DNA from: Candidatus Delongbacteria bacterium
GTDB lineage: Bacteria > UBA4055
NCBI GenBank assembly: GCA_027858225.1
Contig: JAQIDB010000073.1
Span: 1-45,476 of the forward strand
Direction: 5' to 3'
DNA length: 45,476 nucleotides
Shown here in pieces: positions 3,873 to 26,243 of this stretch; position 1 is the stretch's first letter; each line of letters begins with the position of its first letter. The notes under the pieces are model-generated. The model was not told where the DNA came from. It saw only the letters and a list, made by a program, of their open reading frames with translations, and made no database searches. Both the position numbers and the translations under genes were made by a program.

Positions 3873-6800
3873 ATGCAATTCCTTAGAACAGGAATTAAGG
3901 TCTTATTTTTATTCTCAGTTATGGTTTTATCTTCAAGAGGTTTTTTACCTCCTAAGTATGATCAGAAAATACCAATAAATATAGATAAAACTTCAAAGGC
4001 ATTTGTGCCTTATCCTGAGAATAGAGTACACAGAGCAGGATTGTTTTGGCTGAACATTACAAATAGAGGGATATTAGGAAATACAGATAAAGATTTGGAT
4101 CCGTGTACCGGAAAAACTGCACTTAGAGCTGAAATGCCGGGCGGATCGGGAGTTGATTATCTTTTTGGGGCTTCGTTATGGTTCGGAGGTTACATTGATT
4201 CGTCGCATATGAACATTGATGGAGTTGATGCCACATTATTTCAAGGTCCATTGGTTTCAACATCTGCATCTTCGTTTACCAGGTTTTATCACGAATTACA
4301 GCCAATAGGCTTTGATGAAGATCCGACAGGATTGACATTAGGAAAAATTTATGAATCATCTAATATTGAAGGTAAAATAAGTTGTTTGTTTAAAGATGTT
4401 TATGATCCAAATGCCACAGCAGCAGAGCAATTTACAACAATGTACACGGATAAATTTGTAAGTTTTAATTACACAGGTTATGATATTTACGACAAGAGAG
4501 ATCATATTCCACTAGGTATAGAGGTAAAACAAAATAGTTATGCCTGGCCTTACGATTATGCAAAAAAATTTATTATTGTTGATTACACAATTTATAATAA
4601 GAATGAAGATAAGAAAGATATATTTAATTTTTTTATGGGTGCTTTTGTTGCTCCTGAGGTTGGTATTAAAAATGAAGATTCCCCATTTTGCTTTAGAGAT
4701 GATATATGCGGTTTTATAGAAAAATGGGATAATTATTTTGATCCTGCTACGGGTGAACAAAAGTCTGTAGATCTGAATCTAATTTGGTTTGCGGATAATG
4801 ATGGTAGAAATTACCCCGATATTACAGAGAGGCTTCCAATCATCGAACCATCTGCAGGATCACCGTTGGATGGAGCAACGGGAGTATTTACTGTAAGAGT
4901 TCTAAGAAATCCAAATCCAAATCTAAGATATTCCTTTAATTTATTCAATAGCGGTTGGTTTAGTGAAAGTCTTGATTGGGGACCACATTGGAAAACAGGA
5001 CTCCACTCAGACTGGCAATATGATCTGACATCTGAACAAAAAGGTTACGATGATAACAATTATGATAATTTACTATGGGTCACAGACGAACCGCTAAATG
5101 GTGGCAGAACAGAAGGAACACCGATAGGTGATATTGGTAGATATATGGTCATGTCAAATAACGAATTCGACCATAATCAAACTTCTATAAGAGAAGTATA
5201 TCTTGGAATGAGTACACAAGTTGACGGAACACCTATCCCTCAAGTCAATAAATGGCAACCATGGATACTAGATGGAGAAGAGCAAGGAGGTGAGATTCCC
5301 GATGGTAGTGTTAGGCTATTAAATGATATTGCAAACGGAATAAATTCCGATTTACTTTTATCATTCGGGCCATTAGGTTATGAAAGTTATGTAAATGTCG
5401 CCTATGATACTGTTCAAGACACATTAACGATTCTAGATGGAGTGAAGAATCAGAAAGCCTGGAAATTTGCTTATGGTGATTCATTAAAATTAACACTTGC
5501 ATTTATGGTAAGTGAAAATTTCAATAGCTCACTAGATCAGGATCCAAATTATACTGATACTACAATCGTTGATCTATCAGATGGTCTTGATATATCATTA
5601 TACGATCAGGGATGGTATGACACGTTCTATAATGTTACCTGGGTCGAAAGGGTCTACGATATTCCTTTGTATGATACACCTGTTACAAAATATGGTGAAA
5701 CAAAAACTGACGGCTGGTACGGAGAAGATGTAGGTGAAGACGGTATGTTTGCCGATCTGATCTACGATCCAAACACATATTGCTGGTGGACAAGATCAGA
5801 TTATTCTGGTGAAGATAATGGAGAAAATGATTTTGAAATAACCGACTTCACAACACCAATAACAGATACTTACGGTCATATTGCAACGAATGAAGATGAA
5901 CTTCTGCCGTTGGGTAGGGAGCAGGTTGACAGTGAAAGAAAATACGGTATTACAGGATCTTCCGATACAGGAGAAGGTTACGGTTACATGGTAAAGTATG
6001 ATAAACTTGACGGAGCATATCCTCAAGGAACATGGGTAAGATACGGATATGATAACGGTAAACTTGATCCTGGAGACGGAGTTCCTGATTTTGCGGGACC
6101 ACCACCTCCACCATCACCGAAGATAAAAGTAAATTACGACAACAATGATGTCATAATATCTTGGTGTTCACATGAATTCTATGAGAAAGATGATGGTACA
6201 AAGGGCATCGTAGGGCCGGAATTCTTTTACGATCCATTTTCAAGAAAAAAAGATTTTGAAGGTTATCAAGTTCAAATATCAATAAAAGATCATCCAAGAG
6301 AATATGTAGAAATATTTAGTATCGATAGAATGAATTACGGATATGAAAATGTAGTTAAAGTAGGAGAGTACTTAGATAATCCTGTACCTAAAGATAGTGT
6401 TCTATCAAACCCTGAATTATTTCCACCTACAATATCGTATGTGAATAACATATTTCAACTAACTCCATTCGGAGATAACAGGTCAATGTATGACACACAC
6501 TCACATGATGAACTCTACACGTACACAGCAACACCTGATACAAGTCTAATAGACCTCTACGGAGTTATCTGGAACTATAAATTCATTTTACATAATAAAC
6601 TATATGCCAAAGAAAATTTTATTGCAGTAACAGCATCAGATTACGGAGCACCTAAAAGTGGAGTGCCCCCACTACAATCAAGTCCAAGTATGAATGGAAG
6701 ATCTATCATACCTACAAAGATCGAAGGAACGAAAGATGTTGTAGTAGTACCGAACCCTTACAGAGATGATGTGGATTATGAAGCAATGGGATGGGAGAAT

Positions 6801-7085
6801 ACTGATGGCGGACAATGGTTTGAGCAGGACAGGAAAATAGTGTTTATGAATCTTCCGGAAAAGTGCGTATTACGGATATATACATTAGCTGGTGATCTTG
6901 TTAAGACCATCGGGCATAACGGAAATGCAAGAGATGGTGTAAGGTATCAGTACGGTGATTATGGTGTTTCATGGGATCTTATAAATGAAAATCAGCAGGC
7001 TGTTGTATCAGGTATTTATCTTTTCAGTGTTCAGGCTGTAGATTCAGATTATGAATTTGTCGGAAAATTTGTTGTAATAAAATAG
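3873..7085 (+). CDS. Large exported protein A with sorting-type C-terminal domain
   Basis: This 1070-residue protein of unknown function starts with a signal peptide (hydrophobic residues about 8-24). Its N-terminal region is strongly conserved with the protein at 14843: NRVHRAGLFWLNITNRG, DPCTGKTA, IFQGPLV-like LFQGPLV, ESSNIEGK and HIPLGIEV. Later shared blocks are DWGPHWKT, YMVMSN.EFD and LSFGPLG. A proline hinge GPPPPPSP (742-749) precedes a beta-rich part. The last ~110 residues (VVPNPYR at about 959, RIYTLAGDLVKTIGHNGN, VSGIYLFSV, GKFVVIK) resemble FlgD-like or T9SS-type sorting domains, though not the classic NYPNPFNP form. An ideal SD, TAGGAGGAATC, fixes the start. I infer a surface or secreted role. 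I found no convincing promoter in the 217 bp upstream. Confidence 0.85.
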   Translation: MQFLRTGIKVLFLFSVMVLSSRGFLPPKYDQKIPINIDKTSKAFVPYPENRVHRAGLFWLNITNRGILGNTDKDLDPCTGKTALRAEMPGGSGVDYLFGASLWFGGYIDSSHMNIDGVDATLFQGPLVSTSASSFTRFYHELQPIGFDEDPTGLTLGKIYESSNIEGKISCLFKDVYDPNATAAEQFTTMYTDKFVSFNYTGYDIYDKRDHIPLGIEVKQNSYAWPYDYAKKFIIVDYTIYNKNEDKKDIFNFFMGAFVAPEVGIKNEDSPFCFRDDICGFIEKWDNYFDPATGEQKSVDLNLIWFADNDGRNYPDITERLPIIEPSAGSPLDGATGVFTVRVLRNPNPNLRYSFNLFNSGWFSESLDWGPHWKTGLHSDWQYDLTSEQKGYDDNNYDNLLWVTDEPLNGGRTEGTPIGDIGRYMVMSNNEFDHNQTSIREVYLGMSTQVDGTPIPQVNKWQPWILDGEEQGGEIPDGSVRLLNDIANGINSDLLLSFGPLGYESYVNVAYDTVQDTLTILDGVKNQKAWKFAYGDSLKLTLAFMVSENFNSSLDQDPNYTDTTIVDLSDGLDISLYDQGWYDTFYNVTWVERVYDIPLYDTPVTKYGETKTDGWYGEDVGEDGMFADLIYDPNTYCWWTRSDYSGEDNGENDFEITDFTTPITDTYGHIATNEDELLPLGREQVDSERKYGITGSSDTGEGYGYMVKYDKLDGAYPQGTWVRYGYDNGKLDPGDGVPDFAGPPPPPSPKIKVNYDNNDVIISWCSHEFYEKDDGTKGIVGPEFFYDPFSRKKDFEGYQVQISIKDHPREYVEIFSIDRMNYGYENVVKVGEYLDNPVPKDSVLSNPELFPPTISYVNNIFQLTPFGDNRSMYDTHSHDELYTYTATPDTSLIDLYGVIWNYKFILHNKLYAKENFIAVTASDYGAPKSGVPPLQSSPSMNGRSIIPTKIEGTKDVVVVPNPYRDDVDYEAMGWENTDGGQWFEQDRKIVFMNLPEKCVLRIYTLAGDLVKTIGHNGNARDGVRYQYGDYGVSWDLINENQQAVVSGIYLFSVQAVDSDYEFVGKFVVIK

Positions 7086-10788: not shown

Positions 10789-10864
10789 ATCCCAAACCTT
10801 GAAACAGTTAAGGTTTTGTAGCGCTATTAATATAAACTTAATTAATAAACAAATGGAGCCAACT

Positions 10865-13800
10865 ATGAAAAGAAGTATCGTCATTTTGATGATCGCCCTC
10901 TTCTCCTCTATTCTTTTTTCAGGTACTACCGGAAAGATAAAAGGTATCGTAACTGATGAGAATGGCGAACCTTTAGAAGGTGCTAATATCATGGTAGTAG
11001 GTAAAACTTGGGGTGCTGAAACTGATGAAGATGGTTATTACTATATCATCGGTGTCAGAGCAGGTACTTATCAAGTAAAATGTCAGTACATTGGATACTC
11101 TCCAAAGACAGTCGCCAACCTTAAGGTAAGAGTAGGCCTAACGTCTTCTCAAAACTATAAGTTAGTTTCAGAAGCGATTGAGATTGGTGAAATGGAAATT
11201 ACAGTATACCAAGATGAAAAAGTAGAAATGGATGTGACAACTTCTGTTAGGAGTGTTAACATGGGTACTATGGGTACACAAGCTGTTACTGAAGTTTCAG
11301 ACGTTCTTAATAACGAAGCGGGTATCAAGAAAGATGCTGACGGAGGATTGCACTTTAGAGGTGGTAGGTCCGGAGAGGTAAGTTATGTTATTGATGGTAT
11401 ATCTGTTGGAGATCCAACGGGTGCTAAAGATGCTCCGGTATCCATAAATTTTGCAAATGTTGAATCTTTCAATATTCAAAAAGGTGTACCTGATGCAGAA
11501 TATGGTGATGCACTTTCTGGAAGTGTGAATATTGTGATGAAAATTGGTGATCAAGATAAAACTTCCGGACATGTAAAATATACTACGGATTCTTTCTTAG
11601 GGGATAGTAAGCTGGACTACACAAGAGGTGAGTTTAGCATTAGTGGTCCTATTCCTATACCTGGCATGTCAGAAAAACCTACTTACTATATTGCTACAGA
11701 TCTTACGACTCAAAATGGATTTTCACAGTCGTATAGAGATTTAGGAGATAGGGATGGGGATTATTACGAATTTGGAGATTTTGATATTACTAATCTTGGA
11801 TTTGACGTAGCTCAAAAAAGGGAAAATAATTTTAACATCATCTTTAAAACAGCTTATCAAATAACTCCAAAAATGAGTGTGTCTACGTCTTATACCGCAT
11901 CAAGATCTCACGATTATGATTTTTCTTGGCTTTATAGATATACTCCACAAACAGCTAATGAAGTTATTACAGATGTAGCGGTATTTAACGTGAGTTTTAA
12001 ACACACGATAAACCAACAAAGTTACTATGACTTAATCTTTTCATATTATAATAGGAAATTGGAAAGTCTTCCGGGAGGAAACTTACCAACTGATTTTGTT
12101 TTTGAGGACGAAACTGATCAATTCAGTTTATATGGAGATATGTTAAGTAATAATATCAGAGACGGTGGTGACGCCGAAGGGTATTTTGATTTAAATCTAA
12201 ATGGCTATTTTGATAGAGAGTATTTTATTGATGCGAATGGAAATAGTAATTATGATATGGGTGAAGATTTTGTAGATGCGGACAATAACGGTCTTTACGA
12301 TGGTGATGGTCTTTTCGATTCTGGAGGTTCATCAGCTAATAATGAATGGGATTATTGGGAGGCAGGACAATCTTTCAGTGGTTTTGTCGGAGGTGATTTT
12401 ACAACAGTCGGAGGTGTTTCAGTTACAGTTCCCGGAACGATGACTTCGAATATTTATAATAACTCTTTCGATATTGTTGAAGGATATATTGATCAAAATC
12501 TCAGTGGACATTATGAGAAGGATATTTACGACGAAGGGTTACAGGGTTCTTATGAACATTATGTTGACGGTGACCATTTCTTTGATACAGGAGAGCCGTA
12601 TATTGATCAGAAAAGATTAATGCTGACTACTTCTGGAATTAAAGCAATTTCTAATAAAATTTGGAATGAGGCAACGACAGAAACTTTTGCGCTTAAAACA
12701 TTTAAAGCTGATGATGATTCATTGGTGAATGATAATTTAGCAGGAGGATTAGATTCTTGGTTCTGGTCAGCTTTAGCTGAACATGAGAGCAATAACTACT
12801 ACAATGCGTCTTACAGCACAAGAAACAGTGGCACTTATGAAATAGAAATTGAATTGGATGTATCTGATCCAATAACTGGTGTGCCATATTACTATACTAT
12901 AATGGTGTACGATCAAATGATCGACATTGACTACTCTAAAGAGTCATTCCTTGACCTTAGATCTTCATTAGGATCTTCAGCGCAGCCAAACCCAAGATTA
13001 AATTTGGTGTATGACAAACAATGGAATGGTGTGTTTGATGAATTTGAGGCATATTCTAAATTTAGACCAAATGGTTCGAGTACTGATGAATCTAATTTGG
13101 GATGGACGACAGGTCATTCCTATGCAGATAATCCTTCCGACTATGTTGAATATGTTGGTTCATACGTGATTTATAAAGCTCCAACAAGTGTATTGGTTGA
13201 TGGAAACCTAATCAATATGTATGACGAGACTCCTAATGTAGCAACTATCCCTTTAGACTCGTATTCTACATGGATTAACAACAATGGGGATGTTAATAGT
13301 ACATATAATGTAGCAAATAATATGCACGATGATGGTGAAAGTTTTGAAGATTATAATAGTAACGGTGTTTGGAACTTGAATCCTGGATTTTTGTTGCCAG
13401 ACGAGTATTATGATGGAACGAGATATCAACTTTTTGACAATACCGTTTATAAATTGAAAGGTAATTATACAAACCAGTTGAATAAGTTCCATATGATAAA
13501 AACAGGTTTTGAATTAGCATTGAATGAGTTGGATTATTACAGTAATACTAATCCTTATTACGCTTATGATACTGCTAACCAGGAAGTAATCGAAGGAGAT
13601 CCATTTCCTGAGAACGGAGAAACAAAAACATATTATCAATACAAGCCAATTGAATTTTCAATGTATGTTCAAGATAAAATGGAATTTGAAGATCTAGTTG
13701 TTAACGCAGGAATTAGACTTGATATGAGGTCATTAGATCAAGATGCGATTGATTATTATGAATCTAAATACAATTCAGAAGGTTCAGATCAATTTGGATA

Positions 13801-14809
13801 TGAAGAAGAACTAGAGCCTACAATCTATGCAATAAGTCCGAGATTTGGTATTTCTCATTCTATCTCTGAAAGTTCAAAGTTGTTTTTCTCGTACGGTCAT
13901 TTATATATGAAGCCTAGTTATACAGCAGTATTTGCACCTAATGCAACAACTGATACTAACCCATTGTTTGGTAATATGAACCTTGGTTATGAAAGAAATG
14001 TTCAATACGAACTTGGGGTTGTAAATGAATTAGGATTGTACTTAGTTGATATTACAGGATACTTCAAAGATATCTACGATATGATAAATACAAAAACTTA
14101 CGATTATGGCTCTCACCTTGCTTCAGTTTACTATAATTCAGATTACGGTAAATCTAGAGGAGTTGAGATTGCAGTTGATAGAAGTCTGCAAAACCATTAT
14201 TTGTGGGGTGTTAACTACGTACTAGCCTATGCTTATGGTAAATCATCAGATGCGGAATCTAATTTTGATACTGATATAACTGACGATGATGAAACTGAAC
14301 TTATAATAAAAGAATATCCATTGATATGGGATGAAAGACATCAGATATCTTCATACTTTACATTGATGTTTGGTAAAGGTGAAACTTTGTTCGATATTCC
14401 TTATACTGATAATTGGTCTATTGGAATGAATACAAGTTTTGGAAGTGGTACACCTTTTACACCTTCTGCAGAATTCTATGATGGGGACGTTGCTTCAGAG
14501 GATATTCAGATAAATTCTGAGAGAATGCCTTGGACATCGAGTACTGATCTTAAAATTTCTAAGACTTTTGCATTTACCGGTGAAAATAATGTATCTTATG
14601 GAAATCTTAAATTCGATTTCAATATTTACAATTTGTTTAACAAGATAAATGTTCTAGAAGTATACGAAGATACAGGAAGTTGGTCAGAAAGAAGTGATCT
14701 TTTTTATACCGCGAATTCAACACAGTCTAATTTTTCAGATTTCTATACAGATTTGTCAAATATTGCCGAAAGAAGACATTATAGATTTGGTGTAAGTTAC
14801 GCTTGGTAA
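10865..14809 (+). CDS. TonB-dependent receptor-like outer membrane barrel with calcium-loop insertions
   Basis: The 1314-residue protein has a signal peptide (MKRSIVILMIALFSSILFSG). A carboxypeptidase-regulatory beta-sandwich follows (about 22-105: GKIKGIVTDENGEPLEGANI, YIIGVRAGTY), then a plug domain (about 130-235: VSDVLNNEAGI, LHFRGGRSGEVSYVIDG, GDALSGSVNIV) and a large beta barrel ending in aromatic Trp (RFGVSYAW). Two clusters of acidic DxNxNGxxD loops (about 442-485 and 543-583, plus DYNSNGVWN at 829) look like calcium-binding loops inserted in extracellular regions. I see no clear TonB box, so energy-coupled transport is uncertain. An open frame reaches TTG 10799, but GGAG at 10855-10858 and the signal peptide select ATG 10865. 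It is first in a five-gene operon. Confidence 0.87.
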   Translation: MKRSIVILMIALFSSILFSGTTGKIKGIVTDENGEPLEGANIMVVGKTWGAETDEDGYYYIIGVRAGTYQVKCQYIGYSPKTVANLKVRVGLTSSQNYKLVSEAIEIGEMEITVYQDEKVEMDVTTSVRSVNMGTMGTQAVTEVSDVLNNEAGIKKDADGGLHFRGGRSGEVSYVIDGISVGDPTGAKDAPVSINFANVESFNIQKGVPDAEYGDALSGSVNIVMKIGDQDKTSGHVKYTTDSFLGDSKLDYTRGEFSISGPIPIPGMSEKPTYYIATDLTTQNGFSQSYRDLGDRDGDYYEFGDFDITNLGFDVAQKRENNFNIIFKTAYQITPKMSVSTSYTASRSHDYDFSWLYRYTPQTANEVITDVAVFNVSFKHTINQQSYYDLIFSYYNRKLESLPGGNLPTDFVFEDETDQFSLYGDMLSNNIRDGGDAEGYFDLNLNGYFDREYFIDANGNSNYDMGEDFVDADNNGLYDGDGLFDSGGSSANNEWDYWEAGQSFSGFVGGDFTTVGGVSVTVPGTMTSNIYNNSFDIVEGYIDQNLSGHYEKDIYDEGLQGSYEHYVDGDHFFDTGEPYIDQKRLMLTTSGIKAISNKIWNEATTETFALKTFKADDDSLVNDNLAGGLDSWFWSALAEHESNNYYNASYSTRNSGTYEIEIELDVSDPITGVPYYYTIMVYDQMIDIDYSKESFLDLRSSLGSSAQPNPRLNLVYDKQWNGVFDEFEAYSKFRPNGSSTDESNLGWTTGHSYADNPSDYVEYVGSYVIYKAPTSVLVDGNLINMYDETPNVATIPLDSYSTWINNNGDVNSTYNVANNMHDDGESFEDYNSNGVWNLNPGFLLPDEYYDGTRYQLFDNTVYKLKGNYTNQLNKFHMIKTGFELALNELDYYSNTNPYYAYDTANQEVIEGDPFPENGETKTYYQYKPIEFSMYVQDKMEFEDLVVNAGIRLDMRSLDQDAIDYYESKYNSEGSDQFGYEEELEPTIYAISPRFGISHSISESSKLFFSYGHLYMKPSYTAVFAPNATTDTNPLFGNMNLGYERNVQYELGVVNELGLYLVDITGYFKDIYDMINTKTYDYGSHLASVYYNSDYGKSRGVEIAVDRSLQNHYLWGVNYVLAYAYGKSSDAESNFDTDITDDDETELIIKEYPLIWDERHQISSYFTLMFGKGETLFDIPYTDNWSIGMNTSFGSGTPFTPSAEFYDGDVASEDIQINSERMPWTSSTDLKISKTFAFTGENNVSYGNLKFDFNIYNLFNKINVLEVYEDTGSWSERSDLFYTANSTQSNFSDFYTDLSNIAERRHYRFGVSYAW

Positions 14810-14842
14810 AAGATTAAAATTAAATAATTAGGAGACTGATTA

Positions 14843-17800
14843 ATGAAAATATATAAGCGAATATCTACCATTCTTTTGTTGGTGGCCTTTATATCTTCTT
14901 TTGCTAAGGCAGCACCGGAGAAAATGAATGCAGGTAGTGATATGAAAGTAGTTCAAGATTCGAAGTTGCTAAGACCGGAACTTTACAACAGGACTCATAG
15001 AGCAGGATTATTGTGGATGAATTTAACAAATGCCGGTTATTACGGCAACCCAGATGGATTGATCGATCCATGTACGGGTTCAGTAGCACCATCAGGAGAA
15101 TTACACTCTGGAAATGTTGCGGACTTCTTGTTTGTTGGAGGTCTGTTATTTGGGGGGTATTTGGATTCTACTCAAGTTGAAATTTCTGGTGTTGAATCAA
15201 GTATATTTCAAGGTCCATTGGTTACATCATCTTATGATGGTTGGGTGGGAGATCCTATGGCCAAAGAAATGTGGGCTGTTGATTTTGTAGATGATCCAAG
15301 TGGATTGACACTGGGTAAAATAAGAGAATCTTCAAATATTGAAGGGAAAAAGAGTTGCTTATTCGAAGAAGTTTATGATCCGGCTTCTACTGCAGAAGAG
15401 CAATTTAACACAATGTATACTGACAGATATGTAGATCAAACTTATACAGGGTGGGATCTTAATGATAATCGTAATCATATTCCACTAGGTATAGAAGTAA
15501 GACAAAAGAGTTATGCATGGTCTTTTGATTATGCTCAAAAATTCATCATTATAGACTATACATTATATAACGAAAATGCTGATGGCAACGATATCTATGA
15601 CTTCTTTATGGGTATGTATCTTGATTGTGATATTGGTATGATCAATTCAACTTGGGATGAGAATGCAGCGGATGATCTTGGTGGATTTATTCAAAAATGG
15701 GATGGATATAAAGATCCTGCTACGAATGAATATAAAACTGTTGATCTAAACCTTGCATGGGCTGCAGATAACGATGGAAGAAATTATACAGGAGAGTATT
15801 ATTTAGGTACTGATGTTGAACCCGGAGCTGATAGTCCATTAGATGGTGGTACCGGTATTGTAACAATTAGAGTTCTAAGAAATCCAAATCCTGATTTAAA
15901 GTATGCTTTCAATTTATATGCTGCAGACTCAGATGATGAAGGTAAAGATTGGGGACCTCACTGGAAAACAGACCTACATGATGACTGGGCTTATGATCTT
16001 ACTCCTATGCAAAAAGGTTATGATGATACTAACCATGATGGTTTATTTAATGATGGTGGAGAATTTTTATACAATGGAAGAACAGAAGGAAGACCAATAG
16101 GAGATAGAGGTAAGTATATGGTTATGTCAAATGATGAGTTTGATTATAATCAATATGACATTATAGATGTTCATTTGGGAAGATTTAGTGATCCTGATTA
16201 TGTAGAGGATGGTTCACCATTTGCCCAAGAGGATAAATGGCAACCATGGATACTTCCGGCAGATGTACAGCCAGGTGAAGTTGCTGATGGAGATCTTGAA
16301 ACTAGAAATGACCTTGCAAATGGTGCGGATGTAAAATATGTTCTTTCATTCGGTCCTCTTGGAACTGAAGACTATCAAAATGTAGCTTACGATTCAGATA
16401 ATAATGGAAGTATAGATTCATATATGAATAAGAATATCTGGAGATTTGCTTATAAGGATTCTATTAAGCTTACATTGGCATTTATTGTTAGTGACGGATT
16501 CCATAAATCTCTAGAACAAGATCCAAATTATTATGGACAGGAAGGTGCGATGGATCCCACAACAGGAATAGATCCGTCATATTATGATGCAGGTTGGGAT
16601 GATGCGTTGTATAATGTTTTATGGGCAGAAAGAGTTTATGACATACCAATGTATGATACTCCTGTTAAGAGTGATGTTTACCCTGACGGAATCGGTGATG
16701 GCTGGTTTGGTGAAGATGTAGGTGAAGATGGTATTTATGCTGATACAAGAAATACTACCGAATGTTGGTGGACGGATCCAATAGTTCAATATGGTGCTCC
16801 AGATGCAGGAGAAGGTAATATGGAGATGGATGATTTTACTACTCCATTTACTGACACGTATGGTCATTTAGCAAGTAATGAAGACAACCTTTTACCATAC
16901 GGAAATGAAATCTTTGTTAATGGTGCTAATATTGATTATGAAATTACAGGTACTAGCACTGGTGGTTACAAAGACGGTTATGGATATATGGTTAAATATA
17001 ATAATTTGATTGATCCAAGTTCAGAAGTACCACAAGGTGATTGGGTAAGATATGGATTTGACAACGACAAAATGGATGCTGGAGATGGAGTACCTGATTT
17101 TACAGGTCCACCACCACCACCTTCACCACAAATTGAAGTATCCTATAATAACAGCGACATAATCGTAGAATGGGCATCTGTTGAATTTTCTGAATCAGAT
17201 GGTGTCGAGGCTATTTCAGGACCTGAAATGATAAAAGATCCTTTTACCAGAATAGTGGATTTTGAAGGTTACCAAGTACAAGTTTCTCCTGATGATCTTT
17301 CGATAAATTTCATAGAGGTCTTGAGCGTGGATGAAGAAGATTATACATACGTAAACGTTGCCGAAGTTGGTGATTATTTATGTTCACCATTTTCTAAGGA
17401 AAGATATGATTACCTTGTATCTACAGATTCAACGCAAATTTATCAAGACGGTAAAATATGGATATTAACTGCTTTCGGAGATAATAGAGATATGACATCT
17501 TCTTACGCAGAAGAAGGAATGTATGAGTATAGTGCTACTCCGGCAACAAAGATTATTAACAATACAGATACAATTGATTATTTCAAATATAAATTTATAT
17601 TGAAAGATAAATTATATGCTTCACAGAGCTATATTTCCGTAACATCATCTGATTTTGGTGATCCTGATTCGGGAACTCCGGCATTACAGTCAAGTCCGTC
17701 AGTTAACCAAGTATCTGTTATACCGACAAAGTTTTCCGGAAGAGATGATGTAAGGGTAGTACCAAACCCATATAGAGCAGATGTTGATTACGAAGAACTA

Positions 17801-18103
17801 AACTGGGAAAATTATAACACTGATGATGAGTGGAATGAGCAACAAAGAAAAATACTCTTTATGAACATACCTTTTGAATCAATCGTACGAATATACACTT
17901 TGGCCGGTGATCTAGTGAAGACAATTGGTCATAACGGAAATTCAAGAGATGGTGAAAAGTATCAATATGGTGAATATGGAGCTGCATGGGATCTTATAAA
18001 TGAAAATGATCAAGCAGTAGTATCCGGGATATATTTATTTAGTGTTCAAGATGTTAACGATGACAGCTATGAATATATCGGTAAATTTGTAATTATTAAA
18101 TAA
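14843..18103 (+). CDS. Large exported protein B, paralogue of the protein at 3873
   Basis: The 1086-residue protein has a signal peptide ending near AKA (MKIYKRISTILLLVAFISSF...). It aligns along its whole length with the 1070-residue protein A: NRTHRAGLLWMNLTN, DPCTGSVA, IFQGPLV, GLTLGKIRESSNIEGK, HIPLGIEVRQ, DWGPHWKT, YMVMSNDEFD, LSFGPLG, the hinge GPPPPPSP (755-762) and the C-terminal module. That module starts with VVPNPYR near 972 and includes RIYTLAGDLVKTIGHNGN and VSGIYLFSV. Function is unknown. The conserved tail suggests delivery to, or anchoring at, the surface. TTAGGAGAC is the SD. It lies 33 bp after the barrel gene and 12 bp before the lipoprotein gene, so it is made with both. 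Confidence 0.87.
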   Translation: MKIYKRISTILLLVAFISSFAKAAPEKMNAGSDMKVVQDSKLLRPELYNRTHRAGLLWMNLTNAGYYGNPDGLIDPCTGSVAPSGELHSGNVADFLFVGGLLFGGYLDSTQVEISGVESSIFQGPLVTSSYDGWVGDPMAKEMWAVDFVDDPSGLTLGKIRESSNIEGKKSCLFEEVYDPASTAEEQFNTMYTDRYVDQTYTGWDLNDNRNHIPLGIEVRQKSYAWSFDYAQKFIIIDYTLYNENADGNDIYDFFMGMYLDCDIGMINSTWDENAADDLGGFIQKWDGYKDPATNEYKTVDLNLAWAADNDGRNYTGEYYLGTDVEPGADSPLDGGTGIVTIRVLRNPNPDLKYAFNLYAADSDDEGKDWGPHWKTDLHDDWAYDLTPMQKGYDDTNHDGLFNDGGEFLYNGRTEGRPIGDRGKYMVMSNDEFDYNQYDIIDVHLGRFSDPDYVEDGSPFAQEDKWQPWILPADVQPGEVADGDLETRNDLANGADVKYVLSFGPLGTEDYQNVAYDSDNNGSIDSYMNKNIWRFAYKDSIKLTLAFIVSDGFHKSLEQDPNYYGQEGAMDPTTGIDPSYYDAGWDDALYNVLWAERVYDIPMYDTPVKSDVYPDGIGDGWFGEDVGEDGIYADTRNTTECWWTDPIVQYGAPDAGEGNMEMDDFTTPFTDTYGHLASNEDNLLPYGNEIFVNGANIDYEITGTSTGGYKDGYGYMVKYNNLIDPSSEVPQGDWVRYGFDNDKMDAGDGVPDFTGPPPPPSPQIEVSYNNSDIIVEWASVEFSESDGVEAISGPEMIKDPFTRIVDFEGYQVQVSPDDLSINFIEVLSVDEEDYTYVNVAEVGDYLCSPFSKERYDYLVSTDSTQIYQDGKIWILTAFGDNRDMTSSYAEEGMYEYSATPATKIINNTDTIDYFKYKFILKDKLYASQSYISVTSSDFGDPDSGTPALQSSPSVNQVSVIPTKFSGRDDVRVVPNPYRADVDYEELNWENYNTDDEWNEQQRKILFMNIPFESIVRIYTLAGDLVKTIGHNGNSRDGEKYQYGEYGAAWDLINENDQAVVSGIYLFSVQDVNDDSYEYIGKFVIIK

Positions 18104-18115
18104 TGGAGTACGGAA

Positions 18116-20077
18116 ATGAAAAAACTAATTTTATCACTTATTGCACTGTTAGTAATAATGGTCTTTTTTTCCTGCTCTGATTATGTCGGGGATATGCCGG
18201 GAAATATAAAGCCTAAGCTGGTGATTTATGACACTTATGATAACATAAGTAGTAATAAAACAAGAGTACAGTGGTATGCAAATGATCAAGATGGTACTAA
18301 GATAAAGTATAGTTACTGTATAACAACAGATACTACAATGACAGTATCGGAAGCAGAAATGGAATTAGATGCAGAATTGTGGTCAGAAACAGAAGATTCA
18401 TATGTTGAACTTTCTATGCCATTTGCACCTTTGAATTCTGATATAATGTTTGTTGACAGTACGACTTTTATAGATACTGTTGAATTTGTTGAAGTTACTA
18501 GAGAGATAGTTTGGTCAAGATTCTTTCTTTTTGCCGAAGATCCGGAAGAAGATGGAAAAACGGCAGTTACTTCTAAGGTATTTGGACGTACAAATAGGAT
18601 ACCTAAATTTCCAATGCTAAAATCTGAAAAACTTGGATTTAATGGATTTGATGACTATAGGTTTATTATCGGTCCTGATTCATCCCAGATGATTTTAGAG
18701 AATGAAACATCTACATGGGAAGCAATTGATTTTACTTGGAGAGGAGAAGATGACGATGGTTATGATGTTGTTCTTGAATTTAGATGGGAATTATGGTCTA
18801 TTGATCCGCATCCTGATTCTATCGATGTAAAGATTGATATGGTAGCATCCGAAGATTGGCGAGAAACTCCTACTTCAGTTAAGTTTTCAAAGGTCTTATA
18901 CGATTATTTCCTTACTGATGTAACTCGTGACAGATATTCGTTTAAAATCTGGGTAAGAGATGATGCAAGAGAAGAATCTGATGAACATACAACTGCCAAC
19001 TTCTATATATTTACACCGAAGTTAGAAAAAGGTATTTTGTTAGTGGATGATACATCTTTAAGAAATATGGGAAGTTATCTAACGTTTGAAGGAAATCCAG
19101 ATAAAAATGTAGTAAAGGACCTATATGATAGTTTACTTGTGAATGCAGGTTTTACAATAGATTCAGCAGATCCTTTGACGGACTATGATTATTGGGATGT
19201 TGTTACTGATGGAGAGCCAACTTTAAAAGCACTTGCAGAACATAGACTTATAGTCATTCAAAGTGAAGATCGAAAATCAACTATAAATTATGACTCTTAT
19301 AGAAGAACATTGGAAGAATATATCAACGTTGGTGGAAAAGTATTCTTGGTAGGATCATCAAATCTTCTTGCGGAAGATCTAAAAGTTGATAACTACAAAA
19401 AGCCGATTAGGGTTGTATTTGAAGATTTTAATGATTCGTCTCAACCTTTTAATGAAGGAACAATGGAATTTTTCTATACTTACTTTGGAATATATTCCTA
19501 CACACATCCGGAATCAAAATCTTTCTGGTCTCAATCAATGTATGAATCTGGAAATTTATTACTTATTGGAAAGATCCCTGGTAACTATTATTATACAGAT
19601 AACTATGGTTTTGTAGGAGCTGCTCCTGTAGGTCATATAACTGATGTGAATTTCACTGATATGAATATTGATTCTACTGTAGTCAATACATACTGGACTG
19701 ATGCTTCTGCACCATTAGGAACAACAGTTGAGTTGACTCTAAAAAAGAATGGAAATATTTTAACTGGTATTCCTTCTTTTGAAGCATTCAAAGGTGAGGT
19801 TGTATATGAATTCAAGTCTGTATATGATTACGATGAACATAGCGATATTAGAGAGTGGACAAATCCAAATTTGGCGGACTCATTAAATTTAAGCGGTCCT
19901 GTTGCCCAAATAGATGGAGCTGTATTGACAAGATATCAAGCAAATGATGATGTATATAGAACAGCAATGTGTACGTTGCCGCTTATATTTATGGATAACT
20001 CTGACGGGTCAGTATCAAATATGTTTAAAGCAATGATAGATTGGTTTGAAATAGACATCGATCCAATGACGAAATAA
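18116..20077 (+). CDS. Large lipoprotein of unknown function in the envelope operon
   Basis: The 653-residue protein has a lipoprotein signal with lipobox FFSC and acylation Cys20 (MKKLILSLIALLVIMVFFSC). The mature part opens with a fibronectin/Ig-like stretch (PKLVIYDTYDNISSNKTRVQWYANDQDGT is its core, about 31-60). A second module with WRGEDDDGYDV (about 202) follows. From about residue 302 (KGILLVDDTS) to about 425 (DYWDVV, HRLIVIQSED, YINVGGKVFLVGSSNLL) there is an alpha/beta region. It resembles glutamine-amidotransferase-like or ThuA-like folds seen in some Bacteroidetes exported proteins. I cannot name a catalytic triad. It is coupled to protein B (12 bp) and presumably forms part of the same envelope complex. 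Confidence 0.75.
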   Translation: MKKLILSLIALLVIMVFFSCSDYVGDMPGNIKPKLVIYDTYDNISSNKTRVQWYANDQDGTKIKYSYCITTDTTMTVSEAEMELDAELWSETEDSYVELSMPFAPLNSDIMFVDSTTFIDTVEFVEVTREIVWSRFFLFAEDPEEDGKTAVTSKVFGRTNRIPKFPMLKSEKLGFNGFDDYRFIIGPDSSQMILENETSTWEAIDFTWRGEDDDGYDVVLEFRWELWSIDPHPDSIDVKIDMVASEDWRETPTSVKFSKVLYDYFLTDVTRDRYSFKIWVRDDAREESDEHTTANFYIFTPKLEKGILLVDDTSLRNMGSYLTFEGNPDKNVVKDLYDSLLVNAGFTIDSADPLTDYDYWDVVTDGEPTLKALAEHRLIVIQSEDRKSTINYDSYRRTLEEYINVGGKVFLVGSSNLLAEDLKVDNYKKPIRVVFEDFNDSSQPFNEGTMEFFYTYFGIYSYTHPESKSFWSQSMYESGNLLLIGKIPGNYYYTDNYGFVGAAPVGHITDVNFTDMNIDSTVVNTYWTDASAPLGTTVELTLKKNGNILTGIPSFEAFKGEVVYEFKSVYDYDEHSDIREWTNPNLADSLNLSGPVAQIDGAVLTRYQANDDVYRTAMCTLPLIFMDNSDGSVSNMFKAMIDWFEIDIDPMTK

Positions 20078-20113
20078 ATAAAATCTTATATATAACAAAC
20101 GGAGGGAGTAAGA

Positions 20114-22321
20114 ATGAAGAAAAATTATTTAACACTGATTGTCCTTACATTATTTGCGATCAATGTAATGGCTTTGACCAAAGACTACAAAAAAGAAGCA
20201 TTGACAACAAAAAAAATAGATTTCCAAAAAACTTCTTCATCAAAGGCGCCTTTTGTTGGTACTGATGGTGGTATCTTTGATGGTTCGGTAAATGGTTATG
20301 GTTGGTACCAAGGTTACAATAGAAAGATTCAAGTTAATATGGATCCACTTACTGGACCAATGTTTGGTTCTGTTTACAGACAGAATAATACTGATGCTAA
20401 TTCAGGCCAAATCGGCGGTATGATAGGTAGTTGGGCAACTGATACATTCAATGGTTATACTTCTGAGTTAATGCCAGCATCGTCAGCATGGGCAGCACCA
20501 GGTGGTAGATATCCTTATGCAAATGAATTTATTAATGGATACTTCTTTGGAACATGGAACGATTACGAAGGTGTGGCAACTACTGGTATGAATTCACTTC
20601 CAGTATTCGCTGTTGCAGATGCGACTTTCGGAGCGGATTGGGCTCTTTGGTCAGATAATGGTATTATTGAAGCAACCGAAGGTGGGGCAATACCTGTTGA
20701 TGCTTGGTGTCCAACTGGTGATGTTGTTTATGATGCTGCAACTGGATATTATTACTGGATGCAAAGTTGGAGATGGCGTTTGGGTAATTGGACAGGAAAC
20801 CAAACAAGTTTTGTTATTGGAAGAACTTTGACTCCTGGTGATATTACAAGTTGGGTATGGTCAGATTATAACGATGAAGGTTTTGATTGTACAGCAGATG
20901 ATTCACCTCAACTACAGATGTTAGATAGTCACATAGCTTACGCAAAAGACATCTATGGTAATGGAACTGGTAAAGGTATTATAGTAAACGCTGGAAATGA
21001 TTACAATGATTCTTGGATTACAAGTATAGATTCTATTGGTTGGAACGATTCATTAAGTGTTACAATATGGGATACTGTTACAGTTGATCTAGGAATAAAA
21101 ATAAACTATATGTACACTACAAATTGGGGTGGAGATTACTCAACAGGAGATTGGAAACCTAATTGGAAAAAAAGATCTGATGGAGCATGGTTTCAAGTTG
21201 AGCCATCTGAAATATTTGATTGGATAGGAACTGCATATACAACAACGGATACGCTTCAGGCTGGAAATGGTTCAGATTCACTAGTAACATATGAAACAGT
21301 AATAGATGATGCTTCAATAAATTGGGACTGTTCAGCTATAGCAACAGAATACGATCAAGTACATATTTTAGCTAGAGTGTATGGTTCAACAACAGATCCA
21401 GATAGCCCTTGGGCAGGTTGGACTATTTATGGAAATGATGATGGAGATCTAATAGGTGGTTATTATGATATTAGAGGTACTATCACTGATACAGGTGTTA
21501 TTTGGCATAACGCAGTATTTATTGCTAATGTTGTAGGAATGGATACAGATACAGTTGAATGGCAGACAGATATGGCAATCGGATATGCAGGATATGGTCA
21601 GATTTATGCAACATGGCTTGACAAACCTGTAAGTAGAGGCGTTGTTAATCCTTATGCTGAAGCTGATCAAAATTCAGCTTGGATAGATGATGCATATTTT
21701 AGTTATTCTGATAACGATGGATTGAATTGGGAAACCGATAAAACAGTAACATTTGATTATACTGTAGGTCCTCCAGTTTATCCAACTACACCATATGTTG
21801 CAAAGTATGCTAAAAACATAACTAATAGTAAAACTTTACATGAAGAAGGATGGCAAATAGCTAATCATGGTATGGTAACACATGTAGATGGAACTACTAG
21901 TGAAGGTGCTTTAGAAGTTTATGCAATACATCAATACTATGATGTAGAGAACAGTTATGATCCTGCATTAGAATACTTTGATCATGAGCAATTCTTGCAT
22001 GTATGGAAGATTACAGGTAAAACAACAGGAATTACGACTGAAGATGTTGCGATTGATATGGATTTTCAGTTAATGCAAAATTATCCAAACCCATTTAATC
22101 CAAGTACTGAGATTAATTTCAAGATCCAAAATGATGCTAAGGTTAAACTTACTGTATTCAACTCTAAAGGAGAATCAGTAGTATCTTTAGTTGATGGTAA
22201 AATGGCAAAGGGACTTCACAAAGTTAATTTTGATGCTACAGAATTAAATTCAGGAATTTACTTCTATCAATTAGATGTAAATGGAATGAAATCAACAAAG
22301 AAAATGGTATTAGCTAAATAA
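20114..22321 (+). CDS. Secreted protein C with classic T9SS type A sorting domain
   Basis: The 735-residue protein has a signal peptide (MKKNYLTLIVLTLFAINVMA). A repeat-poor, Gly/Tyr/Trp/Asp-rich secreted body follows (GYGWYQGYNRKI, IGGMIGSW, YMYTTNWGGDYSTGDW). The C-terminal domain from about residue 654 carries MQNYPNPFNPSTEINFKI, VFNSKGE, GLHKVNFDA, NSGIYFYQL and KKMVLAK. This tail is the standard type IX secretion sorting signal: export through the outer membrane, then cleavage and attachment at the surface. It is a paralogue of the protein at 27767. The SD is GGAGGGAG. Function of the body is unknown. Its position upstream of a PorV-like gene fits a cargo-shuttle pair. Confidence 0.88.
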   Translation: MKKNYLTLIVLTLFAINVMALTKDYKKEALTTKKIDFQKTSSSKAPFVGTDGGIFDGSVNGYGWYQGYNRKIQVNMDPLTGPMFGSVYRQNNTDANSGQIGGMIGSWATDTFNGYTSELMPASSAWAAPGGRYPYANEFINGYFFGTWNDYEGVATTGMNSLPVFAVADATFGADWALWSDNGIIEATEGGAIPVDAWCPTGDVVYDAATGYYYWMQSWRWRLGNWTGNQTSFVIGRTLTPGDITSWVWSDYNDEGFDCTADDSPQLQMLDSHIAYAKDIYGNGTGKGIIVNAGNDYNDSWITSIDSIGWNDSLSVTIWDTVTVDLGIKINYMYTTNWGGDYSTGDWKPNWKKRSDGAWFQVEPSEIFDWIGTAYTTTDTLQAGNGSDSLVTYETVIDDASINWDCSAIATEYDQVHILARVYGSTTDPDSPWAGWTIYGNDDGDLIGGYYDIRGTITDTGVIWHNAVFIANVVGMDTDTVEWQTDMAIGYAGYGQIYATWLDKPVSRGVVNPYAEADQNSAWIDDAYFSYSDNDGLNWETDKTVTFDYTVGPPVYPTTPYVAKYAKNITNSKTLHEEGWQIANHGMVTHVDGTTSEGALEVYAIHQYYDVENSYDPALEYFDHEQFLHVWKITGKTTGITTEDVAIDMDFQLMQNYPNPFNPSTEINFKIQNDAKVKLTVFNSKGESVVSLVDGKMAKGLHKVNFDATELNSGIYFYQLDVNGMKSTKKMVLAK

Positions 22322-22338
22322 TACTATTCGATAATAAT

Positions 22339-22367
22339 TTGGTAGGCAGTTTAAAACTGCCTACCAA
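22339..22367. repeat. Perfect 13-bp-stem hairpin after the T9SS cargo gene
   Basis: Arms TTGGTAGGCAGTT (22339-22351) and AACTGCCTACCAA (22355-22367) pair perfectly around a 3-base loop. No T-run follows. It could cause transcript attenuation or stabilise the upstream mRNA between protein C and the PorV-like gene, or be a dispersed palindromic element. Confidence 0.6.
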
Positions 22368-22396
22368 TTATATTTATGTTTTCATTCGGGAGCTGT

Positions 22397-22423
22397 TTGA
22401 CAGTTTCGGACTGAAAATATAAA
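22397..22423 (+). promoter_or_regulatory. Weak promoter-like site before the PorV-like gene
   Basis: A perfect TTGACA (22397-22402) is followed after only 15 bp by TATAAA (22418-22423). The short spacer weakens the case. If used, it would give the PorV-like gene its own transcript in addition to operon read-through past the hairpin at 22339. Confidence 0.25.
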
Positions 22424-22480
22424 AAAGGGAAAGATAACATTGAAAATAAAAATTAAAATAATAAAGCAAAGGGGAACAAA

Positions 22481-23497
22481 ATGAACAAAAAACTGCTAAT
22501 TCTCGTGATGCTTATCGTGGTGTTAGTGCCTGCTTCATTAGCTCAGGATAAAGGTGGAACTGCAGGAATGCCATTTTTAAAGCTTGATGTAGCTGCAAGA
22601 GCATTTGCGATGGGTGGGGCTTTTATAGGTTTATCAGATGATGCATCTACTTTGTATTACAATCCTGCGGGACTAATCAACCTTAAGTCCAGCGAATTTG
22701 TATCATCCCACAATATGTACCTGGCAGACATAAGCTATAGCTACATTGGTGCAACTTATCCGTTGCCACAATTCAATGCAGGTGTAGGTTTACAAGTCTC
22801 ATACCTAACAACAGGTGATATGGATGAAACAACAATTCAAAATCCTGATGGAACCGGAAGAACGTTTAGTGCCTATGATTTTATGGTTGGTGCTACTTAC
22901 GCGCAAATGTTGACTCCTAAGTTCTATGTTGGTGGAACTCTAAAATTATTAGGTGAAGGACTTGCAGAAAAGAAAGTTTATACAGTTGCGGGTGATGTAG
23001 GAACTTATTATAATACAGGATGGGAATCTCTTGTGTTTGGTATGTCTATTAGAAATTTTGGTGGAAACTATTCATATTTCGTTGAAGAAACACCTTTGCC
23101 TATGTTATTTGTTTTCGGTCTTAGATATGCACCTATTGATGATTCAATTAATAAGTTAGATGTTTTATTAGAAGCAGCTCATCCATCTGATAATAGTGAA
23201 TATATGATTTTAGGTCTTGAATATTCGTATAACAATATGTTCTTTGTTAGATTCGGAAGGAAATTTGACAATGATGAATACTGGATTTTAAAAGATGATG
23301 ATGTTTATTTTGCCGATAATGCTGATTCTGCTGATGAGGAATTAAATTATTCAGATAGTGGCATTAATTGGATGGGAACAAGTTTCGGTCTTGGTTTTAA
23401 TATGGAATCAATGGGATTAAATCTTGATTATGGCTGGAAACATATGGGATATTTAGGTGTTACACATATGGTAACCCTCGGTTATGCGTTAAGGTAG
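22481..23497 (+). CDS. PorV/PorQ-family outer membrane barrel protein
   Basis: The 338-residue protein has a signal peptide cleaved near SLA-QD. It has the signature start of the PorV/UPF0164 family: FLKLDVAARAFAMGGAFIGL, DDASTLYYNPAGL, SSHNMYLADISYSYIGA. Repeating amphipathic strands and a GYALR end fit a FadL-like beta barrel. PorV works in type IX secretion as the carrier that takes CTD-bearing cargo from the translocon to the attachment complex; other family members have less clear roles. Lying directly after a T9SS-tailed cargo gene supports the secretion role. AAAGGGGAAC is the SD. A strong terminator follows, ending the operon. Confidence 0.85.
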   Translation: MNKKLLILVMLIVVLVPASLAQDKGGTAGMPFLKLDVAARAFAMGGAFIGLSDDASTLYYNPAGLINLKSSEFVSSHNMYLADISYSYIGATYPLPQFNAGVGLQVSYLTTGDMDETTIQNPDGTGRTFSAYDFMVGATYAQMLTPKFYVGGTLKLLGEGLAEKKVYTVAGDVGTYYNTGWESLVFGMSIRNFGGNYSYFVEETPLPMLFVFGLRYAPIDDSINKLDVLLEAAHPSDNSEYMILGLEYSYNNMFFVRFGRKFDNDEYWILKDDDVYFADNADSADEELNYSDSGINWMGTSFGLGFNMESMGLNLDYGWKHMGYLGVTHMVTLGYALR

Positions 23498-23513: not shown

Positions 23514-23543
23514 TAAAAAAAGGGAGTTTTTACTCCCTTTTTT
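23514..23543. terminator. Strong intrinsic terminator ending the envelope operon
   Basis: An A-run and GGGAGT pair with ACTCCC and a T-run around a TTTT loop (AGGGAGTTTTTACTCCCTTT core). The symmetric A and T tracts make it work on either strand. It follows the PorV-like stop by about 16 bases. Confidence 0.9.
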
Positions 23544-23639
23544 TTATTGCTTAAATAAAGATTAATGAATAGTATTAATACGTCAAAACCTCTCACTTTG
23601 ACACGAAGGAACGAAAATAGAAATGACCGGAAAAACAAC

Positions 23640-26243
23640 ATGAAAAATATAATAATAATTTTAATTATTTTCTTATTAGGTGAAGCTTTTGGAATTCAAA
23701 AATATACAGTTGATAAGATAAATAAATATTCAGGTAAAAATTCAAAAATCTTACTTGAGATGGTAGATTCTCAGAAAGGTAAAACACTGAAATATATAAA
23801 TTTCATATTAGATAATTCATCAGCTAATGATCTTGCCGTTCTTACTCCTCAATATATCCTCGAAAGTGTTGAGTATGCAATTAAATCAAAAGAGTTCTTA
23901 TATTCCAAACAATACGATGATAAAATATTCCAACATTTTGTACTACCATTAAGAATGTCTCAAGAACCGTTCGAAGAATGGAGAAAAAAATTCTACACAG
24001 AGCTTAAACCGATCATAGAAAAGATAGAAGACATAGAAGAGGCTGCAATTGCTATAAACTTCTGGGCATATGAACAAATGACTTATAAATCAACTCATGG
24101 CAGAGACCAAGGTCCGATCACAACGATGAAAAGAGGTTGGGGTAGATGCGAAGAGATGATGATAATTTATATGGCAGCAGCAAGGAGTGTAGGAATTCCG
24201 GTTAGATCTGCAGGAGCCCCATTTTGGAATTTTACTGATAATAATCATGCTTGGGTTGAAGTATGGACACCTGAAGGTTGGAAATATATAGGTGAATTAG
24301 CCAACAGATTGAATAAGACATGGTTTTCACACACAACTTTAAGAGCATCTCTGATCACTTCAAGAGCATTTGGTAATTATAAGAGTAAGAATGTGATCAA
24401 AACAGAGAATAATTCAACACTATTAAGTTCGATAGAATATTATACGGATAAATATGACGTAAGTAAGATCATGATCGATGATGAGAATGGTCAGCCTATC
24501 GAAGACGCTGTAGTAACGCTTTATGCGGTGTCTTATGGTGGAATTATGCCATTGATCGATGCAAAGACAGATAAATTTGGACAGGTTTCAATACCAATAG
24601 GTAAAGGATCTGTTTTCGTAACAGCCTATGATAACAAATCTAAATTTGGTTATGGGCTTTTTAACAGCCTAGAAAATGGAACTGATTTTAGGCTAATTCT
24701 CAAAGAAAAAAATGAGAATATTGATATAGATATTAATTTTAAATTCCAAATATATCAAAGTGAATTTAATCATGACAGCTTACAAAAAGAATATTTCAAA
24801 GGTACATTCGATATTAAGAATCAACTGGCAAATGAAAAAAGAAAGAATAAATTTAAAAACTACGAAAGAACATCAGAATTTGTAGAATATTTTCAAAGAA
24901 GTTTGAAAAATAATATAGATGTTGATTATTTTAAGAGACAAAAAAAATATTTGGATAAATGTAATTCTTTAGGGGAAAACACTTCAGAATACTTAAAGGT
25001 GTACAAAAACTTAAATGGCTTCAAAAGTAAAAATTATATACTAACCTCAATGATAGAAAAATGGAATGAAAAAGAATTGAATGAAATTCCAGATAGTACA
25101 GCAATTCATAATTTGGTGGATATTTACTATGAAGGAAGGAATAAATTTAAAAAGGTAGTTCCAGATACAATGTTCACTAATAATGTAATCGGTGCCACAT
25201 GGAAATCTGCTACACCACCTCAAAATGGTTGGCAAAAAGAACTTTATAGTAAAATTAAAGATCTCAGGTCCTACAATATGAACACTACTGTAAAAGATGT
25301 TCTTTCCTGGGTTGATTCACAGGTCAAAGTTGATAGTAATTTTACATATAGTTACTACGGTGGATCATTGAATCCGGTACAAATATTGAATATGAAGTCG
25401 ATTTCTCCATTCTACAGAACTAAATTAGTTAATTCTTCGTTGAAATTATTAGGAATTCCGGTACAATGGAAAGGTAGATTAGAATATTATAATGGCAAAA
25501 AATTTGTTACTGTAGAAAGTAAAGCAACTGATAAAAATGATTTTCAGGACAGAGAAATCCGATTATCATTGTATGTTGATAATGAAAAAGTAAAAGCTGA
25601 TCCTTGGAGTAATTTTTTGCTCGGAGAGTACAATAAAGGAGTTATTGAGAATTCGTACTTTGATGGAAAGAATGATTCTTTAGATTACATACTAACGTTT
25701 CCTAGGCAGGATGATAAATTCTTGTATATCGAAGCTGCAGTAAGAAATTCTAATGGGGATGCTAACGTAATAATAAAAAGTATTAACAACGATGATAAAG
25801 AAATAATAGTTAGATTGAACGCTCCAAAAGAGTATTTGGACACTTCGTCTGACCTATCAGAAAAAGCTATTTTAAGTATTATAGAACTTACATCAACTAT
25901 TCCTGACGACAAAGCAAAGGTTATCTTGGTCAGGGGAGTTATACCTACTGAGCCAACAAAACGAATGCTTAGTTTATTAGTTGAGAAAGCTGCAAAATTC
26001 AATGAACTAGATGCTTCAATTGTTATATACACTGAATTAAGAGATAATGATGATATTAAAAATATTTCAGCTGAAAACATTATAAAAAAACAGGGTGAAA
26101 TACTTATTCCAGAGACAGAAGATGAATCTTATCCAATAATTCTATTGGTAGACAAAGGTAATAATGTACTATTTTCTTCAAAAGGGTATAATATGAGCAT
26201 TGCAGATCTCCTTTTAAAGAAAATAAAGAATCTAAAGAAATAA
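23640..26243 (+). CDS. Exported transglutaminase-like protein with carboxypeptidase-regulatory-like domain
   Basis: From ATG 23640 the protein has 867 residues and a signal peptide (MKNIIIILIIFLLGEAFG). A transglutaminase-like (papain-fold) domain spans about 125-235. Its catalytic Cys170 is in GWGRCEEM, followed by ARSVGIPVRSAGAP and His203 in NNHAWVEVW. The third position is Glu219 (YIGEL), where Asp is common. A carboxypeptidase-regulatory-like beta-sandwich follows (about 278-345, IDDENGQPIEDAVVTLYA). A later stretch (KLVNSSLKLLGIPVQWKGR, ~ residue 603) echoes a transglutaminase domain without a cysteine. The C-terminus is thioredoxin-like at best. An open frame extends to ATG 23565, but its charged leader would bury the signal peptide. 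The cleaved or crosslinked substrate is unknown. Confidence 0.8.
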   Translation: MKNIIIILIIFLLGEAFGIQKYTVDKINKYSGKNSKILLEMVDSQKGKTLKYINFILDNSSANDLAVLTPQYILESVEYAIKSKEFLYSKQYDDKIFQHFVLPLRMSQEPFEEWRKKFYTELKPIIEKIEDIEEAAIAINFWAYEQMTYKSTHGRDQGPITTMKRGWGRCEEMMIIYMAAARSVGIPVRSAGAPFWNFTDNNHAWVEVWTPEGWKYIGELANRLNKTWFSHTTLRASLITSRAFGNYKSKNVIKTENNSTLLSSIEYYTDKYDVSKIMIDDENGQPIEDAVVTLYAVSYGGIMPLIDAKTDKFGQVSIPIGKGSVFVTAYDNKSKFGYGLFNSLENGTDFRLILKEKNENIDIDINFKFQIYQSEFNHDSLQKEYFKGTFDIKNQLANEKRKNKFKNYERTSEFVEYFQRSLKNNIDVDYFKRQKKYLDKCNSLGENTSEYLKVYKNLNGFKSKNYILTSMIEKWNEKELNEIPDSTAIHNLVDIYYEGRNKFKKVVPDTMFTNNVIGATWKSATPPQNGWQKELYSKIKDLRSYNMNTTVKDVLSWVDSQVKVDSNFTYSYYGGSLNPVQILNMKSISPFYRTKLVNSSLKLLGIPVQWKGRLEYYNGKKFVTVESKATDKNDFQDREIRLSLYVDNEKVKADPWSNFLLGEYNKGVIENSYFDGKNDSLDYILTFPRQDDKFLYIEAAVRNSNGDANVIIKSINNDDKEIIVRLNAPKEYLDTSSDLSEKAILSIIELTSTIPDDKAKVILVRGVIPTEPTKRMLSLLVEKAAKFNELDASIVIYTELRDNDDIKNISAENIIKKQGEILIPETEDESYPIILLVDKGNNVLFSSKGYNMSIADLLLKKIKNLKK

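Follow-up and report, generated by a model that had tools for sequence, protein, structure and literature searches.

A conserved four-gene module of Candidatus Delongbacteria and other phyla that may encode an outer-membrane surface complex joining type IX secretion to a TonB-type barrel

The DNA analysed, referred to below as the window, is a stretch of 45,476 nucleotides on contig G000:C120 of a Candidatus Delongbacteria draft genome (2.4 Mb in 204 contigs). Five ORFs proposed there in the initial annotation, designated A to E, were confirmed, all on the + strand and separated by gaps of 33, 12, 36 and 159 bp, so the tight spacing claimed for the first four genes also proved correct. For gene A the ATG at 10865 was preferred as the start codon, the TTG at 10799 given by the ORF program being judged less likely. 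Two further genes that had been noted as paralogues of unit members, B2 and D2, show 55% and 48% identity to B and D, respectively. The features of the region are as follows.

3873-7085, + strand: B2, paralogue of B that stands alone and ends in a tail of the same type (55% identity; orphan branch in the B tree)
10865-14809, + strand: gene A, SusC-like TonB-dependent barrel (PF13715, PF07715 and PF00593 above cut-off; homologues in synteny)
~10937-11191, 11228-11521 and ~13157-14635, + strand: CarboxypepD_reg, plug and barrel domains of A, in this order (Pfam)
14843-18103, + strand: gene B, large all-beta exported protein of 1086 aa (56-row alignment; structure model with pLDDT 79)
17753-18103, + strand: predicted C-terminal sorting domain of B, of type IX secretion system (T9SS) type and resembling the PorZ tail (seven predicted strands; profile comparisons)
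18116-20077, + strand: gene C, lipoprotein (Cys20) containing Ig-like domains plus an alpha/beta domain (lipobox-like Cys; structure model)
20114-22321, + strand: gene D, accessory T9SS cargo with a type A tail at ~22082-22321 (PF18962, TIGR04183)
22339-22367, + strand: terminator-like hairpin in the D-E gap (sequence not conserved)
22375-22421, + strand: conserved covarying RNA hairpin 5' of E (9 compensatory pairs; 6 Delongbacteria)
22481-23497, + strand: gene E, outer-membrane barrel of the PorV/PorQ family, in a separate clade, proposed anchor or shuttle of B (NF033709; tree)
23515-23544, + strand: intrinsic-terminator-like hairpin 3' of E (13-bp stem, T-run)
27767-29869, + strand: D2, paralogue of D with a type A tail (48% identity; PF18962, 40.5 bits)

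Directly after the unit, at 23565-26243 of the window, lies a gene whose 892-aa product has a transglutaminase-like core; its position is kept in relatives.

Gene A encodes a CarboxypepD_reg domain (PF13715) together with both parts required of a TonB-dependent barrel, the plug (PF07715, 41.4 bits) and the barrel itself (PF00593, 75 bits). Its score against the SusC/RagA model TIGR04056 was 52.5 bits, well below the cut-off of 368.25. The product of gene C has a lipobox-like cysteine near its N-terminus (Cys20), which is invariant across 28 homologues, and in its structure model (pLDDT 78.5) an alpha/beta domain comes after the Ig-like domains. As a whole protein C matched no family in Pfam or NCBIfam and a profile search of the PDB found no relative of it, while Foldseek returned for its model only low-TM matches, mostly to Ig-like or multidomain proteins and none worth naming. 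The type A tail of D was recognised by both PF18962 (38.9 bits, cut-off 27) and TIGR04183 (39.9 bits, cut-off 23), and E belongs to the PorV/PorQ family; the pairing of a T9SS cargo with a PorV-like protein, as first described, was thus borne out.

Gene B likewise matched no Pfam or NCBIfam family as a whole protein, and no relative was found by PDB profile search. Foldseek comparison of its model gave low-TM matches, mostly Ig-like, the second of which was PorZ (5m11; E 2e-3, prob 0.95), a match too weak to stand alone. The tail was more informative. B had been thought to end in another kind of tail than the T9SS cargo D, but the comparisons suggest instead a divergent sorting domain of T9SS type whose nearest match is the PorZ tail. 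The profile of B tails aligned to type A T9SS sorting domains (hhalign, 92.5%), and the structure model has seven strands in the tail region. When 24 B tails were searched individually, 21 matched the tail of the PorZ model, 18 PorU and five type A, the individual E-values being weak (0.002 against PorZ for the B of the window). By comparison, PorZ was matched by only two of 14 ordinary type A tails used as a control, all of which matched both PorU and type A. The PorZ contrast between the two sets gave a Fisher p of 1.2e-5, which is only a guide as the rows are related. B itself is not PorZ (NF052228), the match being confined to the tail. In two B copies, L029 (10653-13805) and L041 (3227-6376), a standard YPNPFNP type A tail stands in place of the PorZ-like one, and this exchange speaks for an equivalent function of B's own tail. 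Both copies are nested in the operonic B clade and are paired with a C homologue, with no A or E seen alongside. Stand-alone paralogues make up 22 of the 56 rows of the B alignment, and B has up to about ten paralogues per genome. Orphan B genes with the same tail occur in G005, G006, G010 and G011, some of them in tandem (three in a row at L035).

Comparison with specific family models placed E in the PorV/PorQ family (NF033709, 185.7 bits, cut-off 90) and below the cut-offs of both equivalogs, PorV (NF033710, 65.5 bits against 250) and PorQ (NF033711, 117.2 bits against 220). The same pattern was seen at most loci, where E proteins scored 90-122 bits to PorQ, always below the cut-off of 220, and 60-86 bits to PorV. 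PorQ was the best specific model for nearly all of them, the exception being L105, which leans slightly to PorV2 (85 vs 80). The canonical PorV of the host genome, which is one of seven PorV-family proteins and is encoded away from the unit, reached 220 bits with the PorV model. A tree built from 55 proteins placed every one of the 33 operonic E proteins, together with two close kin, in a single clade (support 98/95), and the 13 canonical PorV proteins stood apart (support 100/100). The sole solved relative of E by sequence is PorV in the SprA-PorV complex (6h3i). Judged from these scores and the tree, E is a third kind of PorV/PorQ barrel, inherited together with A and B.

The arrangement of the genes in other genomes clearly indicated that A, B, C and E form a conserved four-gene module and that D is accessory, the clustering being far beyond chance. 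Within Delongbacteria, A, B, C and E are contiguous or nearly so at loci L026, L031, L033, L034 and L036, and the order A-B-C-(D)-E recurs within conserved flanks in G001, G005, G006 (twice) and G011. E is linked to the operon by a 4-bp overlap (ATGA) of its start with the end of C in three Delongbacteria (G006, G008 and G011). Outside Delongbacteria, A, B, E and C follow in that order at 15 loci, belonging to Calditrichota, Electryoneota, LCP-89 and relatives. Among the 46 B loci outside Delongbacteria, A lies directly upstream of B in 19 and E no more than four genes downstream of B in 20, several of the others ending at contig edges. In these phyla A is followed in turn by a beta-helix lipoprotein, B, E, a large T9SS cargo of beta-helix type, a TPR lipoprotein, C and a putative glycosyltransferase, or the locus shows a near variant of this order. 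Further versions of the unit were found in G013, G015, G021, G037, G051 and G057. B is present in 38 of the 39 genomes of the phylum of G019. The position of D varies in Delongbacteria, lying between C and E in some genomes and after E in others, and in the other phyla D is replaced by the beta-helix cargo. The conserved synteny of five families proposed at the outset therefore holds for the barrel, B, the lipoprotein and the PorV-like gene, which are kept together across phyla, and fails for D, which is mobile or replaced. Departures from the arrangement were also seen: at two A-B-C loci of G007 no E is adjacent, and E-like genes lie away from B in G004 and G007, the former having no B at all. 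In a MAG labelled Caldithrix abyssi (L075) just an orphan B was seen. The titles of L057, L098, L102, L113 and L120 (Kiritimatiellae, Puniceispirillum, Acetofilamentum) clash with the placement of their B proteins, and these MAGs are probably mislabelled or misbinned.

The five genes had also been taken for a single transcription unit with one strong terminator. The 13-bp hairpin with its T-run at 23515-23544, which follows E and has a counterpart at the same place in relatives, agrees with this; the terminator-like hairpin at 22339-22367 in the D-E gap does not. Next to the latter, a long, imperfect hairpin (22375-22421) is shared by six Delongbacteria. Nine of its pairs show compensatory change, and 91.7% of the cells of the alignment pair, compared with 40-54% when the partner is slid. 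With a covariance model of it, each of those six genomes gave a single hit, always located in the D-E gap and strongest on the coding strand, while Rfam gave no match within the window. The terminator scan by itself showed no excess over shuffles (6 vs 6.6), and promoter sites were no more numerous than in shuffles. Because the gap holds both a terminator-like and a conserved hairpin, A-D and E are not necessarily cotranscribed here. The pair may set the level of E relative to the preceding genes.

The machinery on which such a unit could draw is encoded elsewhere. The host genome carries SprA and PorU away from the unit and also has ExbD, and full-length PorZ-like proteins separate from B were found in the same genomes (G000:C39, G001:C67 and others); a GldM search of the genome gave no match, the control being silent too. 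The presence of SprA, PorU, PorV and a PorZ-like protein elsewhere indicates that the unit is a client of the T9SS rather than a new secretion system. SusD/RagB (PF07980) was found in none of the 21 genomes searched, including that of the window, although the positive control matched in Bacteroides ihuae, which upholds the original view that this is not the SusCD layout. A second pairing of PorZ type with TonB type occurs in four genomes, where a full-length PorZ-like gene and a gene for a small plug-domain protein (~530-570 aa) are at most a few kb apart. Its sites are G000:C39 (4179-6431 and 7840-8082), G001:C67, G008:C171 and G009:C7.

Knowledge of the T9SS comes mostly from Bacteroidota. 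In the attachment complex of this system, PorQ:PorZ and PorU:PorV form subcomplexes (PMC5562754), in which the tails of PorU and PorZ stay uncleaved and are held by PorV and PorQ (PMC5562754, PMC10202324, PMC11285876). The PorZ-like tail of B and the separate clade of E make it most likely, by analogy, that B and E act like PorZ and PorQ. On this basis a model can be outlined in which A, B, C and E encode one surface complex of the outer membrane. The products of all four genes, whose signal peptides were read from the sequence, would first be exported by Sec. The ordinary T9SS, with the SprA encoded elsewhere in the genome, would then move B across the outer membrane by means of its PorZ-like C-terminal domain. 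E would take B over from the translocon and, holding the uncleaved domain as PorQ does with PorZ, would keep B on the surface. There B, together with the lipoprotein C, may lie above the barrel A as a partner outside the cell, and A would import a ligand with TonB energy; D would be an optional extra T9SS cargo. Export and anchoring would follow from homology to PorZ/PorQ and PorU/PorV, while the contact of B with A and the import are our inference, TonB-dependent uptake being the function that we favour. The model as a whole, with export of B by the T9SS, anchoring by E and import through A, seems to us about as probable as its opposite. A wider formulation is more tentative: it is possible that a TonB-dependent uptake machine exists across several phyla lacking SusD, in which a protein exported by the T9SS and held by its own PorQ-like barrel, instead of a lipoprotein, serves the pore as extracellular partner. 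As for what might be imported, Delongbacteria have few plug-domain proteins, of which A is the single conserved large one, and this is more in keeping with a general than with a nutrient-specific role. A nutrient-specific repertoire of the PUL type was considered and set aside as weak for Delongbacteria on the same ground, though G013 has several A-B-E cassettes. These cassettes (L151, L152 and L153), found outside Delongbacteria, are diverged, as if duplicated for different uses.

The main rival to uptake is a structural or adhesive role, in which B and its paralogues would form a surface coat or adhesion complex, with A serving mainly as an anchor or assembly platform and importing nothing. 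B is large and all-beta and has up to about ten paralogues per genome, the D-type cargos are adhesin- or enzyme-like (beta-helix in other phyla), and the unit is a single conserved locus per genome containing no transporter or degradative enzyme gene. Nevertheless, A retains the carboxypeptidase-regulatory, plug and barrel domains and ExbD is present, that is, the parts of an active TonB-dependent transporter, and the adjacency of A and B is kept across phyla; we therefore regard this alternative as rather doubtful. Cognate shuttles can be encoded beside their cargo, as are the SprF-like genes beside type B cargos (PMC12618676), and the location of E, a shuttle-family barrel, next to tailed cargos recalls this arrangement. 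It would fit a dedicated secretion or sorting device, a possibility raised in the initial annotation, in which B and D would be exported through E and A, apart from the general T9SS. This is unlikely, since the genome has a normal translocon (SprA), sortase (PorU) and canonical PorV at other loci, A is a barrel of TonB type with a plug and not SprA, and the B copies with type A tails (L029, L041) have no E nearby. More improbable again is a variant attachment complex in which B and E take over from PorZ and PorQ the delivery of surface glycan to the PorU sortase. The PorZ-like tail of B, the leaning of E to PorQ and the putative glycosyltransferase after C in other phyla are in line with it, but family searches did not identify B as a beta-propeller and its model gave weak fold matches, and the replacement was dropped once a full-length PorZ-like protein had been found separately in the same genomes. 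That unrelated envelope genes share the locus by chance, as the varying position and type of D and the hairpins separating D from E might suggest, is highly improbable given the order kept over several phyla, the separate clade of E and the C-E overlap in three genomes.

Set against the uptake model outlined above, known systems resemble the unit in parts, and none of them fits it alone. With the PorQ:PorZ and PorU:PorV pairs of Porphyromonas gingivalis it would share a secreted protein whose sorting domain is retained and held by a FadL-type barrel, the tail of B being nearest to PorZ and E scoring best to PorQ. However, B matches PorZ by its tail alone, E lies below the cut-offs of PorQ and PorV, the pair is coupled here to a TonB-dependent barrel and a lipoprotein, and a PorZ-like protein, PorU and PorV are separate in the genome. 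Like SusCD/RagAB, it encodes a large SusC-like TonB-dependent barrel together with a proposed extracellular partner and a lipoprotein, but proteins of the SusD family are absent, a T9SS cargo would take the place of the lipoprotein lid as partner, and A is below the SusC/RagA cut-off. The type B cargos of Flavobacterium johnsoniae with their PorP/SprF-like shuttles offer a similar sequence of a cargo gene followed by the gene of its own shuttle barrel, whereas the tail of B matches PorZ and type A-like models rather than type B, and E belongs to PorV/PorQ and not to PorP/SprF. Finally, like the proposed complex, the Bacteroidota BAM with BamG places a FadL-type barrel and surface lipoproteins in an extracellular structure beside a larger barrel, but the unit has no BamA and the BamG match of E is at trace level (16.9 bits, cut-off 250). 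A text search of open-licence papers found no description of the A-B-C-E combination, in agreement with the earlier statement that this is not a described system; among the same papers none named Delongbacteria in connection with type IX secretion, and those on Caldithrix abyssi were silent on secretion and the T9SS.

The unit can be regarded as a conserved, probably housekeeping surface complex of Delongbacteria, Calditrichota, Electryoneota and relatives, which would join T9SS export to a TonB-type barrel via a separate clade of PorV/PorQ proteins. It also adds B and C as two conserved protein families that have no family model. Moreover, it allows a direct test of whether PorV-family barrels anchor particular secreted partners one to one.
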